Shown here in pieces: positions 26,373-63,654 of a stretch of DNA of 64,000 bases. The DNA lies in contig NZ_OX373462.1 of the NCBI RefSeq assembly GCF_947331815.1, positions 1,413,376 through 1,477,375 on the forward strand. The letters are read 5' to 3'. The notes under the pieces are model-generated. The model was not told the DNA's origin. It was given only the letters and a program-made list of their open reading frames with translations, and did not search any database. A program made the position numbers and the translations under genes. Source of the stretch: Cyanobacterium sp. uoEpiScrs1 (GTDB taxonomy: Bacteria > Cyanobacteriota > Cyanobacteriia > Cyanobacteriales > Microcystaceae). Every line of letters starts with the position of its first letter. The first letter of the stretch is position 1.

Positions 26373-26702
26373 AAGAGCGTGCACTCTAGAGAAATTTTAT
26401 AAACATATCGAAATCAATTGACTGATGAATTTTATTGATAAATTCATCTATGACTCGTCAACTTATTAGAACAACTAAAGTAAACTTAGACTATTAAAAA
26501 TATCACGACAATTAAGAATAAATATTACATTAATTAATTACTGTAGTTATATTATTTATTAATAATTTTTTCTGTTCAAATAATTAATAAATAAACTTCT
26601 TTTACTAATGCAGTAAAATTAATGTCCTCATAATTATAGTTGAGAGATTATGTGATAATAGATTATCTATTGACTTTCAAATAAAAATAAATTAGAGATC
26701 GA

Positions 26703-26739
26703 AGAGAATTCATAGGACTTAGAGTCTTATGAATTCTCT
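26703..26739 (+). terminator. 17-bp hairpin with downstream T-rich tract
   Basis: Arms 26703-26719 and 26723-26739 pair with one wobble around a 3-nt loop, followed by TTATTTT on the plus strand. It lies 330 nt past crtB, far for a direct terminator, and may have belonged to a decayed gene in between. Confidence 0.6.
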
Positions 26740-27655
26740 TTATTTTCCTGGTCTAACATGTATTTAGGATTGTTAGTCTATCAAAAAACAATATTTATAA
26801 AGTGAACAGTTTAGTAATTTTATAAGGCTAAATCAGGTGATTACTTTAGCAACTAATACACAAATAATTAACTAGTTTATCTACCATCACTAATGAGTAT
26901 ATCTTCAGTTATTAACATACTTATTCTTATTTATCAATATATCATTATTATAGAAATAATCCAATTTTTGGACAAGATTATTTTTATGTAAGTTTATATT
27001 TTTTATAAATAGAAGTGTTAAACTAATGAATTAATCAGCAGTCAAAAAATAACTAAATTACTCTTTTTATATAAAACATAATATATGTTAATGTTTTTAA
27101 ATAAACAAATTAATATGGAGTTTGTAGAAAGAAACTATAGCAGAGAATACTACATGCTAAAATAGGAATATACTCTGTAAAACACATTAATATTTTAAAA
27201 AAAATTAATATGCAATTATTATTGCTAGTTATATAACTAGTTATAAATATTATTATTTTTATCAAAATCAGAACTTAGTGCTTCTTATTTTTAACTTGTT
27301 ATAATATTTTTATTCTTTCCTATTTACATACTTATATTTGCTGGTTTATCATAGTTAATATTTATCTCTACAGATATTACTTATATTCTTTTGAGTGATC
27401 TTATTTTTTTTTAAAAGTAATATTTATTTTGTTCTTATTATTTAATGATTGGCTAAAAAAAATAAACTTTTTTATTGACAAATAATAGCTTTATAATTTA
27501 ATTGATATTTTACTGCTTATAATTGAATACATAAAATATGAACATCAATCAAAATATATAATTAATTTTTAGCATTCTATTTTACTTGTTGTGTTAAAAG
27601 TTAATTTAAGCAAAAGTATAGACAACAACCATAATTGGATTAACTAATCAATAAC

Positions 27656-27693
27656 TTTTTTGCTAACAAATAGCTATATTTGTTAGCAAAAAA
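27656..27693. terminator. Orphan bidirectional terminator-like hairpin
   Basis: Perfect 15-bp stem (27656-27670 with 27679-27693) around an 8-nt loop, with T6 at one end and A6 at the other, so it could terminate in either direction. No gene lies within 350 nt. Confidence 0.6.
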
Positions 27694-28055
27694 TATACTT
27701 ATATAAAATATGTCAATGCTAGAGACAATTTAAAAACATAAATAAACATAAAATTAACTCCTAAAAAAATGAGCAAGATTTTGAATCTATATAACATAAA
27801 AATACTAATATAAGTATGATAGTATGCAAATTAAATACATTAGAGTACAGTTTGAGTTTTAAAAAAATATTGATATAAATCACTGCAAACAATGAGGATT
27901 TATGTAGTGTAGTAATACAGTTCTTAATTCACCGAGTCTCTAGGACATGAAAGACAATTATTTTCAACTCTTCTATCTCTTAGGTTTACCATTGATAATC
28001 AAATATCAAGTCAGTCACTATACAATCAACATAGAAATGATTACTTCTAGTACTT

Positions 28056-29171
28056 ATGAACTTGCTTCAAAAACTTAAAAATAACCATCTAGCTCGTTTT
28101 GGAGCAACTTTATTGATATTTTTCTATATGGTAGTGATATCAGCAGACTTTATTGCTCCCTACAATCCCTATTTTTCTCAAGTTGATGGGTCTTTATTGC
28201 CTCCAACTACTATCTATTGGACAACCCTAGACGGGAAGTTTCTAGGACCTCATATCTACCCTACAACTCAAAGTCCAACAGATGTGACAACAGGAGAACG
28301 GACTTTAAATGTTGATTTTAAAAACCCTGCACCTATCCGTCTGTTTATTAAAGGTGACCGTTATCAATTATTCCAACTTCGTCTCCCTTTGCCCCCTACT
28401 TTTAAAGAAGTAGAACTGTTTTCTGGGATACCTGTTGATATCCACCTATTCGGAGTGCTAGGAAAGGCTAAATTTAACCTCCTTGGAACTGATGAACAAG
28501 GACGAGATGAATTTAGTCGATTGCTATTTGGTGGAAGAATTAGTTTATTTATTGGACTAGTAGGAATTGTAGTTTCTTTTCCTCTCGGTATACTAGTCGG
28601 AGGTATTTCTGGCTATTTTGGGGGTTGGTTAGATATGGCATTAATGCGTCTGGTTGAAGTATTAATGACTATTCCTGGAATTTATTTATTAGTTGCCTTG
28701 GCAGCGGTTCTTCCCCCTAGTTTAAGCAGTGCGCAACGATTTTTACTTATTATTCTCATTACTTCTCTTATCAGTTGGTCTGGACTAGCAAGGGTGATTC
28801 GTGGTCAAGTTCTTTCTTTAAAAGAACAGGAATTTATCCAGGCAGCAAGAGCAATGGGGGCAACCCCTTGGCGAATTATTGTTCGTCATATGTTGCCTCA
28901 AACAGTTACCTATATTATCATCTCAGCTACTCTTGCTGTCCCTGGATTCATCATAGCTGAGTCAGTGTTGAGTCTCATTGGTTTAGGAATTCAACAACCA
29001 GATCCCAGTTGGGGAAATTTACTTTCGGTAGCTACCAATGCTTCAATTCTCATGCTACAACCTTGGTTGATTTGGCCACCTGCCCTTTTGATTGTTCTTA
29101 CGGTTTTATCTTTTAACTTACTTGGTGATGGACTACGCGATGTCCTAGATCCTCGCTCTCTTAAAAATTAA
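28056..29171 (+). CDS. ABC transporter permease, DppC/OppC type
   Basis: A 371-residue inner-membrane subunit of a peptide/nickel-class ABC importer. An N-terminal helix (OppC_N-like, about 15-32, ending in SADFIAPYNPY) is followed by a periplasmic segment of about 110 residues and then the BPD_transp_1 domain. The NLLGTDEQGRDEFSRLLFGGRISL start and the EAA loop (EFIQAARAMGATPWRIIVRHMLP) are textbook. Its DppB-type partner, binding protein and ATPases are not adjacent, so a working transporter needs subunits encoded elsewhere. The periplasmic insertion is longer than in Escherichia coli DppC and, as I recall, typical of cyanobacterial members. Confidence 0.9.
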   Translation: MNLLQKLKNNHLARFGATLLIFFYMVVISADFIAPYNPYFSQVDGSLLPPTTIYWTTLDGKFLGPHIYPTTQSPTDVTTGERTLNVDFKNPAPIRLFIKGDRYQLFQLRLPLPPTFKEVELFSGIPVDIHLFGVLGKAKFNLLGTDEQGRDEFSRLLFGGRISLFIGLVGIVVSFPLGILVGGISGYFGGWLDMALMRLVEVLMTIPGIYLLVALAAVLPPSLSSAQRFLLIILITSLISWSGLARVIRGQVLSLKEQEFIQAARAMGATPWRIIVRHMLPQTVTYIIISATLAVPGFIIAESVLSLIGLGIQQPDPSWGNLLSVATNASILMLQPWLIWPPALLIVLTVLSFNLLGDGLRDVLDPRSLKN

Positions 29172-29277: not shown

Positions 29278-29308
29278 TGGCTTAAATTAATAGTTTTAAT
29301 TTAAGCCA
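29278..29308 (-). terminator. 12-bp hairpin with T-run on the minus strand
   Basis: Arms 29278-29289 and 29297-29308 pair perfectly. The A6 run at 29271-29276 reads as T6 on the minus strand after the stem. The nearest minus-strand gene, hemL, ends 750 nt away. It could also mark the end of the permease transcript on the plus strand without a T-run. Confidence 0.5.
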
Positions 29309-29327
29309 GATTATCGAGATAAACTTT

Positions 29328-29850
29328 GTTGGCAGCATTGATATTTTACGAGCACAAACTAATTTTTAACTCTATTTTTGGCTAAAAATAGGCTATGTTA
29401 ATCGAGGTCCTATAGAAGAGATTTATATATTAAGTTCCAATATTACTTGAGCTTACTAGAACTAATCCAAAGTATAGACAACAATCCATTTATGCATACG
29501 GGTAATTTAGTATTTTTGCATTATGATGAATTATTTATAATTTGTTGTCTTAAGGATTTAATTGTTGCCCGATATCAAAATTACTATTCTCAAGATATTG
29601 AGTTAACAGTATAATCGACCTATTGATTCATACGACCTAGATGTAGTATAGTATAGTATCTGGAGGATATCAAAAGTAAGAGAAAATTGGTTATCATTCA
29701 ATAGACATTAGGAGTCACTAAGATCTAATATTCAGGTTTTAATCTTAAATTTTAAAAAAATAGACTCTGACCTGGGTAACAATTATTGCAGTCCAAGATA
29801 GAGCTTAATACATAAGTGAAGTAGTAGAATAAAATTATTTATATATTTAT
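29328..29850 (+). pseudogene. Decayed fatty-acyl-AMP ligase (FAAL/AMP-binding enzyme), 3' part
   Basis: Broken frames on the plus strand spell, in order, the C-terminal hallmarks of fatty-acyl-AMP ligases: GYVNRGPIEE (family GYWNRPxE), QYYLS (QAYLS), then from about 29402 one open frame with PFMHTGNLVFLHYDELF (PFLRTGDLGFLxDGELF), CLKDLIVARYQNYYSQDIELTV (family GRLKDLIIxRGxNxYPQDIELTV, split here at KDLIVARY / QNYYSQDIELTV), a stop at 29612, then IRPRC (LRPGC) and KRKLVIIQ (EKLVIVQE). At least one frameshift, several stops and loss of the Gly-Arg, the DG pair and the acidic Asp show it is dead. The N-terminal 400 or so residues are gone. FAALs activate fatty acids for polyketide or lipopeptide assembly, so a secondary-metabolite pathway was probably lost. 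Confidence 0.75.
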
Positions 29851-30057
29851 AGAGAATAATCTAGTAGTTTCTGATTTGTGTACTTTTAATCTATTATTTT
29901 AGAATTTAGGGCTAAAAAAAGACCTAGAAATTAAATTTAATATAAAACTGGATACAAATTCTCTGAAAATTCTCTAAAAGATTGATGAGATAAGACTATT
30001 AATTCTATTAAGTTATTGACTGCTAATTAAAACTATCTAATTTAAAAACTCTTTAAC
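29851..30057. other. Spacer between the FAAL remnant and hemL
   Basis: About 200 nt of AT-rich sequence at the 3' side of hemL with no gene or clear terminator seen. Confidence 0.4.
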
Positions 30058-31359
30058 CTATAAAGTTGCAAAAACTTTACGGGCTATCTCTAAAGTTTGA
30101 TCAATATCCTCATCACTATGAGCCAAGGAAGTGAAACCCGCCTCGAATTGAGAAGGAGCTAAATAAACACCCTGTTCAAGCATTCCCCGATGAAACAGAC
30201 TAAATTTATGTAGATCAGACTTTTTAGCATCATTGTAGTTACGGACAGGTCCTTCCGTAAAAAATAGTCCAAACATTGCCCCAATACAACCACCAGAAAT
30301 AGCATGACCTGCTTCTTGAGCAAACTTGATAAATCCATTACTTAGCTTTTGGGTAATTTTATTTAAATATTCATAGGTACCTGGTTTTTGTAGTAATTCA
30401 AGGGTTTTAATTCCCGCAGTCATAGCTAAAGGGTTACCTGATAAGGTCCCTGCCTGGTACATAGGTCCAACGGGTGCCACCATTGCCATAATATCCTTAC
30501 GTCCTCCATAAGCTCCCACTGGTAAACCACCACCAATAATTTTACCTAATGTGGTTAGATCAGGGGTAACCCCAAATTGTTCTTGAGCTCCTCCATAAGC
30601 TAAACGAAATCCCGTCATCACTTCATCAAATACTAGTAAAGCTTGATGTTCTATAGTTAACTCCCGCAAACCTTCTAAAAACCCTACATCAGGAGCAATA
30701 AAACCGGAATTACCAACAACAGGTTCTAAAATAATTCCCGCAATTTCACCAGGATTTTCGGCGAATAGAGCTTTGACTGCTTCTAAATCATTATAAGGAG
30801 CCGTTAAAGTATCCTTAGTCGTAGTCTTGGGAACTCCTGGAGAGTCAGGTAAACCTAAGGTTGCAACTCCTGACCCTGCTTTGACTAAGAACATATCAGC
30901 ATGACCATGATAGCATCCTTCAAATTTGATTACTTTATCACGTTGAGTAAATGCCCGTACGAGACGCAAGATAGACATGCAAGCTTCTGTTCCTGAATTT
31001 ACAAACCTGACCATTTCTATACTAGGAACGGCTTCAATGACCATTTCTGCTAAGATATTTTCCTGAAAAGAAGGCGCACCAAAACTAGTCCCTTTTTCTA
31101 AGGCCTCATGAATAGCGGCAATAACTTCAGGATGAGCATGTCCACAAATAGCTGGTCCCCAAGTTCCCACATAATCAATGTACTGATTGCCATCTACATC
31201 CCAAATATGAGCTCCCTTGACGTGATCAAAAACAATAGGCTGTCCACCAACGGATTTAAACGCTCGTACTGGAGAACTAACCCCACCAGGCATTAATTTT
31301 TGGGCTGCAGTAAAAATTTCTTCTGACTTTATGGTTGTTAATAGTCTTGTGCTAGCCAC
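30058..31359 (-). CDS. hemL: Glutamate-1-semialdehyde 2,1-aminomutase
   Basis: HemL converts glutamate-1-semialdehyde to 5-aminolevulinate, the precursor of heme, siroheme, bilins and chlorophyll in the C5 pathway. The 433-residue class III aminotransferase has the PLP lysine Lys273 in [18 protein letters not shown], Asp245 in [10 protein letters not shown], and the NSGTEA motif at 121-126. It begins at GTG 31359, supported by AAGGAG seven nt ahead. Length matches the family. It has no adjacent tetrapyrrole gene, though chlD lies 3 kb away. Confidence 0.96.
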
Positions 31360-61725: not shown

Positions 61726-63654
61726 TTAGTGAACTTGCCCATAACCAAACATCTCGTCAATCATACCCTGATATTGTTGTATGATGATTCGCCGTTTAAT
61801 TTTAAATGTCTGAGTCATCAAGCCATTTTCTTGAGAAAATGGTTCTAAAATAAATCTAAAGTTTTTTATTCTATCATCAGGGCAGTATCCAGGACGTTTT
61901 TTTACTTCCCTAGCTAATTCTTTCCAAAATAAAGTCTGTACAGGTTTGCTATAAAGATCACTACAAGCAATCTCTTCAGAAGTTCCAGATACCTTAGGAA
62001 GGTTTAGATTGAGTTGTTGGCTTTGTCCCCATTTGTCCAATGCCTCTAAATTAGGTACAATCAATGCGCCTAAAGCTTTTTGATCTTGACCGACTAACAT
62101 AATTTGGTCAATGTAGGAACTACGGGTGCAAGCATCTTCAATAGCTTGTGGTTCAATGTTTTCTCCATTACTCAGAACTATCGTATCTTTGGATCGTCCA
62201 GTAATTACTAAGTCCCCCATAGAGGTTAACCATCCTAAGTCACCTGAATTAAGCCAACCGTCATCATTAATAGCTGTTGCAGTAGCTTCTGTTTTTTTGT
62301 AGTACCCTTGCATTACTTGAGGTCCTCGAATTAATACAAGTCCTCTTTCTCCTTGAGAAACTGGTTGGCCACTATCAGGGTCAACAATACAAACTTCGGT
62401 TTCAGGGATACATTGTCCTGATGATCCGCGTAAGTTGTGACTATGGGTACGAACGTTAGTAACGGGGGAGGTTTCGGTTAATCCATAACCAACTAAAACA
62501 GGAATGTTAACAATTTCGTAGAAGGTATCGATATGTCTGGCTAAAGAACCACCTCCACTAACGATAGTTTTAAGATTGCCTCCAACTTCTTGCCGAATTT
62601 TACTGTAAATAAGTGTGTCTGCTAACTTATGAAGAGGAGCTAATAAAGCCATTTTAATTTTTGCCAATAAGTATTCTGCATTAGAAGTTTCAAGATGATC
62701 CAAACTAAGATTATTGGCAATACGTCGGGACAGAATGTACTTTTCCGAAATGCTCAAGAAAAATTGGATGATTGTTTGTTGAGTAAGATTTTGCTTACGA
62801 AATTGTTTTTGAATGCCTTCATAAAGAAACTCCCAAAGACGAGGAACTCCAACCATGTGTTGGGGTTTGAATCGTTTAAGATCAGCCTTAAATGTACGGA
62901 TACTAGTGTAGGTTAGTATACAACCCCGGGAAAGAAGAAAATATTCTGCACTACGTTCATAGGCATGCCATGGTGGTAATATAGTAAGAACACGGTCACC
63001 AGGTTGCGGCTGGATAACAGCTTCTAAATAAACCACCTGGTGGAGTAAGTTTCTATGACACAACATGACTCCTTTAGGTTGTCCTGTTGTTCCGGACGTA
63101 TAAATTAGCGTAGCTAGTGTTTCTTTAGTTTGATGGACAGGTTTTAGTGTGGAATGGCTCCCTATTTCCATCAGTTCTTGAAAGTTGAGAGTTTGAATTG
63201 TATTGTCCCAATTTATTTGTTCATCACTCAACAAAATAATGAGTTCAATAGACAATCTATCAAGATCGGACCGGAGTTTAGCTAAAGTTTTTTTGTTTTC
63301 CACAATAAGGATATTACTATCACTATCCTTCAAAATGTAGAGTAATTCATCTTTATCTGCTTGGGAGGAACGTACTGCATTAGCTGCACCGGCCATCATT
63401 GAGCCTTGATCTGCTATAAACCAACGAGGGCTATTATCAGCAAAAAGAGCGACTCGTGAGGGAAATTTTGTTCCTAAACTCTGTAATCCTGCGGCAAAAT
63501 CTTTAATACTTTGGTATAATTGCTCATAGTTTAATGTTATTTTGAACATCCCATGGGGGTCTTCAAGAGCGACAATATCCTTGAATTTTTTTGCAGCTAT
63601 GGGCCAGACTTCGGGCAAGGTATTGAGTAATGAATAGTTTGGTAGATTTGTCAT
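61726..63654 (-). CDS. aas: Long-chain acyl-CoA/acyl-ACP synthetase (AMP-forming)
   Basis: A 642-residue adenylate-forming enzyme that activates free fatty acids for reincorporation into lipids; in cyanobacteria the single long-chain enzyme (Aas) makes acyl-ACP. The AMP-binding core IYTSGTTGQPKGVMLCH lies at 184-200, with YGLTETSP and the linker SGDLGWLTSMGDLVITGR, followed by KDTIVLSNGENIEPQAIE. Length suits the plant-like, cyanobacterial Aas. It is an intact cousin of the dead fatty-acyl-AMP ligase at 29.3-29.85 kb and is probably co-transcribed with ylqD. Confidence 0.92.
   Translation of the reverse strand: MTNLPNYSLLNTLPEVWPIAAKKFKDIVALEDPHGMFKITLNYEQLYQSIKDFAAGLQSLGTKFPSRVALFADNSPRWFIADQGSMMAGAANAVRSSQADKDELLYILKDSDSNILIVENKKTLAKLRSDLDRLSIELIILLSDEQINWDNTIQTLNFQELMEIGSHSTLKPVHQTKETLATLIYTSGTTGQPKGVMLCHRNLLHQVVYLEAVIQPQPGDRVLTILPPWHAYERSAEYFLLSRGCILTYTSIRTFKADLKRFKPQHMVGVPRLWEFLYEGIQKQFRKQNLTQQTIIQFFLSISEKYILSRRIANNLSLDHLETSNAEYLLAKIKMALLAPLHKLADTLIYSKIRQEVGGNLKTIVSGGGSLARHIDTFYEIVNIPVLVGYGLTETSPVTNVRTHSHNLRGSSGQCIPETEVCIVDPDSGQPVSQGERGLVLIRGPQVMQGYYKKTEATATAINDDGWLNSGDLGWLTSMGDLVITGRSKDTIVLSNGENIEPQAIEDACTRSSYIDQIMLVGQDQKALGALIVPNLEALDKWGQSQQLNLNLPKVSGTSEEIACSDLYSKPVQTLFWKELAREVKKRPGYCPDDRIKNFRFILEPFSQENGLMTQTFKIKRRIIIQQYQGMIDEMFGYGQVH

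Follow-up and report, generated by a model that had tools for sequence, protein, structure and literature searches.

The interval between an ABC-transporter permease gene and hemL in the window (i.e., the whole 64,000-nucleotide stretch of DNA analysed here) measures 886 bases, has a G+C content of 26% and holds none of the listed open reading frames of at least 60 amino acids. A preliminary description had read positions 29328 to 29850 as the corpse of a fatty-acyl-AMP ligase (FAAL) that fed a polyketide or lipopeptide synthase. With a probability of about 0.9, we interpret the stretch as all that remains of one pseudogenised gene, which encoded a FAAL, a phosphopantetheinyl carrier (ACP) and a thioesterase (TE) in one chain; an early 34-nt deletion, shared with other symbionts, would have been followed by separate erosion in each lineage.

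Genomes and locus

The window genome (G000) is a single contig of 2,483,960 bases and the smallest of four symbiont genomes; its same-genus sister symbionts (G001, G003 and G005) are likewise small, single contigs, and G002, G004 and G006 are free-living congeners. The organism carrying the window almost certainly belongs to the cyanobacteria that live as spheroid bodies in diatoms. DNA identity in hemL is 88-89% between the window genome and the other three symbionts, as compared to 92-93% among those three, which makes the window genome the outlier. Among symbionts of 2.5-3.1 Mb, the smallest and most distant is EpSB, the symbiont of the marine diatom E. pelagica (PMC12903740), and the window lineage is probably this Epithemia pelagica symbiont.

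The gap occupies the same position, between permease and hemL, in all four symbionts, with sizes of 886 bp (window), 1946 bp (G001), 815 bp (G003) and 3434 bp (G005). Its hemL-proximal end is conserved, as the 3' flank of hemL in the window maps to the corresponding end of the G005 gap and parts of it also match G001 and G003 (DNA comparison). The features of the locus are given in Table 1. Downstream of the permease (29278-29308), a perfect 13-bp inverted repeat with a 5-base loop (TGGCTTAAATTAA/TTAATTTAAGCCA) was noted by eye and also found as a self-match. On the other side of the permease, 1.7 kb without a listed open reading frame (26373-28055) separate it from a crtB-like gene and may contain other relics; the same interval measures approx. 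0.2 kb in free-living G002.

Table 1. Features between and including the permease and hemL genes (window coordinates)
Feature	Position	Strand	Details
ABC-transporter permease gene, intact, left flank	28056..29171	+	371-aa ORF; 90-92% identical to the gap-adjoining permease in G001, G003 and G005
Non-FAAL relic: spacer, then probably the start of a dead DUF2997 gene (5' end, ATG at 29394)	29308..29411	+	Probable source of 'GYVNRG'
Decayed FAAL C-terminal piece	29412..29704	+	Approx. residues 403-514 of intact FAAL-ACP-TE protein L130; frameshift alignment to intact genes
Scar of 34-nt out-of-frame deletion, common to G001 and G005	29472..29473	+	Three pseudogenes aligned with six intact genes
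Short FAAL-ACP linker/ACP-region relic	29728..29766	+	39 nt; collinear with G005 and G001
Conserved 3' flank of hemL, right limit of relic region	29936..30044	.	75% identity over 109 nt to G005
hemL, intact, right flank	30058..31359	-	433-aa ORF; 90-92% identical in sister symbionts

Detection and extent of the FAAL relic

Pfam scans of the raw window fragments and of the TE-like stretch of G005 yielded zero matches; as these fragments are too decayed for profile searches, frameshift-tolerant alignment was used. The fragments named in the preliminary description were recovered when the plus strand was read in three frames. For the central piece, the query consisted of 89 amino acids translated from the plus strand of the window, with stops written as X. 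This query matched 47 of 59 relative genomes at E ≤ 0.001 as well as 164 plasmid records, of which the best were FAALs and FAAL-bearing synthetases (top E value 3e-12, Nostoc; tblastn). The frameshift-tolerant alignment to the best FAAL, the kind of translated search that the preliminary description had called for, was significant, with a score of 156 as compared to a mean of 32 and a maximum of 46 for 60 dinucleotide shuffles. The homology is thus real, and the stretch is indeed a recognisable FAAL corpse, its frame broken by stops and frameshifts and its N-terminal part erased in the window. The span originally proposed was too wide on both sides, as FAAL-homologous DNA comprises the C-terminal piece plus the 39-nt relic from the ACP region (Table 1).

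The C-terminal piece corresponds to positions 1857-2145 of the G005 gap with 74% DNA identity, and its first approx. 200 bases also match the G001 pseudogene (77%). The 39-nt relic is 82% identical to G005 2463-2501 (E = 9e-6) and 79% identical to G001 1193-1231. Because the matched blocks are collinear, the window copy resembles a version of the G005 copy from which large pieces were lost. With regard to individual motifs, 'GYVNRGPIEE', cited earlier as FAAL sequence, is FAAL-derived only from about 'IEE' onward, with 'GYVNRG' lying outside the homology. 'QDIELTV', cited as diagnostic, is homologous and in order, but the conserved TGD of the FAAL hinge reads TGN in this broken gene. Of the other features of a functional FAAL, i.e., an open frame and an ATP-binding motif, none was found in the window copy, where the N-terminal half is absent and the frame is interrupted by stops and by the 34-nt frameshift. 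The FAAL-specific insertion prevents acyl-CoA formation; the window relic does not include that region. As the window fragment by itself does not distinguish a tri-domain FAAL (score of 173) from an ordinary FAAL (172), it was assigned through its DNA similarity to, and its position in common with, the G001 and G005 copies. Elsewhere in the window, a 642-aa open reading frame on the minus strand (61726-63654) covers the sole match to the AMP-binding domain (PF00501) anywhere in this genome.

Probable origin from one FAAL-ACP-TE gene

In their 3' parts, the gaps of G005 and G001 contain an ACP relic and a thioesterase relic. A search with a read-through of this 3' part among 196 genomes of the order identified two intact long proteins (open frames of 1017 and 988 codons), both with PF00501 (FAAL), PF00550 (ACP) and PF00975 (TE) in one chain. 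Further intact members were found in Trichodesmium MAGs (one cut by a contig end), one Crocosphaera MAG and Calothrix. The intact homologues are 960-994 aa long and carry the three domains in this order; their PF00501 matches range from 1e-61 to 3e-69, and they also match NCBIfam FAAL models, below the curated cut-offs of these. The free-living congeners G002, G004 and G006 yielded no match covering nearly the full length of the tri-domain protein.

The four symbiont gaps were aligned, with frameshifts allowed, against the first of the two intact proteins, using shuffled maxima as control. The G005 gap scored 1234 (shuffled maximum 126) and aligned from residue 11 to approx. 930; of 932 aligned positions 374 were identical, and approx. 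46 frameshifts were inferred in total; the N-terminal half is kept only in this copy. The G001 gap scored 962 (shuffled maximum 92) and the window gap 161 (shuffled maximum 64), while no relic was detected in the G003 gap (67 vs. a shuffled maximum of 75). FAAL, ACP and TE are contiguous and collinear in the G005 and G001 copies; the window keeps only the FAAL piece and the 39-nt trace. Genes that follow stand-alone FAALs in G015 (a desaturase) and G045 (a response regulator) were also considered as the source of the relics and rejected, as G005 and G000 did not score above shuffles and a G001 match to one of them (63 vs. a shuffled maximum of 55) was judged to be due to chance.

In a phylogenetic tree, the three relics fall inside a clade with five tri-domain FAALs (100/100) and group with the Trichodesmium, G182 and Crocosphaera copies (99/98; together L115, L131 and L130), the placement of the window piece resting on a long branch. 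Because a sixth tri-domain protein, L133 from Calothrix NIES-4105, falls outside this clade, the FAAL-ACP-TE architecture may have arisen more than once.

In the intact enzyme, the FAAL would adenylate a fatty acid, which would be loaded onto the protein's own ACP; the thioesterase would then release the acyl chain or pass it to an acceptor, with no polyketide module of its own. Genes near intact copies include a nucleotidyl transferase, a UDP-glycosyltransferase and a sulfotransferase (L115:3191-6714, G182) and a PapA/condensation-type acyltransferase (L116:3347-4681, G200); other intact copies have unrelated neighbours. From these neighbours, our guess is a role in the fatty acylation of a lipid or glycolipid.

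Remains of neighbouring genes

DUF2997 and Ycf35/DUF1257 genes come after the permease in the free-living congeners G002 and G006, with hemL elsewhere; in G002 a ferredoxin gene comes next. DUF2997 pseudogenes were significant in G001, G003 and G005, where the relics (in the L032, L033 and L034 gaps) share a CAA-to-TAA stop, and Ycf35/DUF1257 relics were significant in G003 and G005. As these relics lie in the gaps, the order in the symbiont lineage was permease, DUF2997, ycf35, FAAL-ACP-TE and hemL, so that the tri-domain gene of the symbiont ancestor would have lain between the permease-DUF2997-ycf35 block and hemL. In the window, the DUF2997 signal was not significant (30 vs. a shuffled maximum of 36), and no DUF1257 match was found anywhere in the window genome. 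A 22-nt block (29308-29329) is collinear with the G005 spacer, and the left relic was compared by eye (ATGTTAATCGAGGTCCTA vs. ATGTTGATGGAAATCCTA); by position and by this comparison, 'GYVNRG' probably belongs to the neighbouring dead DUF2997 gene.

Polyketide genes

Many cyanobacterial FAALs reside in polyketide or lipopeptide clusters, according to passages of a FAAL review (PMC11837247), and the free-living congeners have PKS genes that the symbionts do not have. Both observations are in line with the preliminary view of the relic as the loading FAAL of such a cluster, the remaining genes of which were deleted. For this locus, that view is already largely refuted, and we consider it improbable. 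In G005 and G001, the FAAL, ACP and TE relics are contiguous and collinear with one self-contained protein, and no trace of a KS, AT, C or A domain was found there; an adjacent or fused PKS/NRPS module is absent from the alignable symbiont gaps, and no PKS/NRPS megasynthase was found among the checked neighbours of intact tri-domain genes. Moreover, the tree places the relics among tri-domain proteins. The idea that a PKS locus once lay between these flanking genes, to be checked in free-living relatives, was also rejected, as permease and hemL are not neighbours in the congeners and the permease of G002 is followed by no PKS locus.

The related claim that the lineage shed its polyketide capacity is probably true, but it is not what the relic in the window shows. 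Each symbiont (G000, G001, G003 and G005) has one match to the KS domain (PF00109), in a FabF-sized frame of 419 codons, as compared to 6-7 matches, including large PKS frames, in the free-living congeners G002 and G006. If the ancestor resembled these congeners, polyketide genes were probably lost wholesale from the symbiont lineage.

A shared deletion and the timing of gene death

Alignment of the three pseudogenes with six intact genes revealed a 34-nt deletion with identical endpoints in all three relics and absent from all six intact genes. The distance from the YW codons to the PF codons, counted by hand, is 66 nt in intact L115 and 32 nt in each relic (net -34), and the deletion is thus frame-breaking; in DNA comparisons, the three relics align with one another across it without gaps. 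We consider this an early lesion, perhaps the first. Since it is common to the three copies, the gene was probably dead before the window lineage, the most divergent symbiont, split from the others. Subsequent erosion would have proceeded separately in each lineage, leaving traces of nearly the whole gene in G005, of approx. half of it in G001 and of approx. 0.3 kb in the window, with none detected in G003.

The identity of 74-77% between the remaining segment and the relics of two sister genomes could also reflect continued use as a short protein or RNA. We regard this as highly implausible, as no copy has kept an open frame, each being interrupted by the common deletion and by further lesions whose places differ, and the segment is undetected in G003.

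Short AAG-type repeats, seen by eye near both breakpoints, can favour recurrent slippage, and the deletion could have arisen more than once, in the window lineage separately from the others, with the gene dying separately. The chlP gene, also dead in these genomes, is in line with this and contrasts with the FAAL locus: relics occur in the four symbionts (L211, L212, L213 and L214), and no frame-breaking indel was clearly shared by the window genome with the others, the G000 copy aligning poorly, so that chlP may have been intact when the lineages separated. Nevertheless, the identical endpoints in three genomes and the gapless alignment around the deletion make a recurrent origin unlikely, and we prefer a single ancestral event. 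G003 and G005 appear to have several chlP indels in common. Relics of psaA/psaB were seen in G001 (C1:2151964-2153483) and G005 (C1:2492356-2493001); the window genome and G003 yielded no such relic.

As one lesion in one gene, the shared deletion suggests, short of proof, an onset of decay in an endosymbiotic ancestor of all these lineages; the same pattern would result if the gene had been disrupted earlier, in a free-living ancestor. The deletion bears on whether there were one or several acquisitions but, as chlP has no clear lesion in common, does not by itself settle this. A bolder combined reading traces the window lineage and the freshwater spheroid bodies back to one cyanobacterium with an already decaying genome, favouring a single acquisition, and assigns the lost enzyme to a new family of self-contained FAAL-ACP-TE proteins whose product would be a lipid other than a polyketide; we put this forward tentatively and hold it to be somewhat less probable than its negation.

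Relation to known systems and implications

FAALs occur as stand-alone, FAAL-ACP and larger multidomain forms and in olefin synthase, according to passages of a review (PMC11837247); the passages found there do not include a FAAL-ACP-TE form. As described in these passages, the stand-alone or didomain proteins JamA, CylA, HapA and NocH share the FAAL domain with the intact relatives found here, and the didomain forms also share a fused cognate ACP; the intact relatives differ in that their chain also ends in a thioesterase and in having no adjacent PKS/NRPS. Cyanobacterial olefin synthase (OLS; FAAL-ACP-KS-AT-KR-ACP plus ST and TE) likewise uses FAAL, ACP and TE, and a sulfotransferase gene lies near one of the intact homologues, L115, but neither the tri-domain protein nor the relics contain KS, AT or KR. 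Approx. 100-290 pseudogenes have been catalogued per rhopalodiacean spheroid-body genome (PMC5638926, PMC11131595). These are likewise frameshifted, stop-riddled relics in reduced endosymbiont genomes, whereas the relic in the window has been traced to a protein architecture and carries a lesion common to the divergent window genome and others. In the open-access texts searched, no paper was found that deals with a FAAL-ACP-TE protein, or with this gene in symbionts of Epithemia.

In a young endosymbiont, one pseudogene is nothing unusual; the shared lesion and the tri-domain family raise the value of this one. The relic leads to FAAL-ACP-TE proteins of Trichodesmium, Crocosphaera and Calothrix for which our searches found no description, and their architecture suggests fatty-acid handling without chain extension. 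A 2026 comparison leaves undecided whether the marine EpSB was acquired separately (PMC12903740). Shared disabling mutations provide a direct test of separate acquisition, with this locus as one worked case and chlP as a contrast, and the relic can help date the onset of genome decay in nitrogen-fixing diatom endosymbionts.
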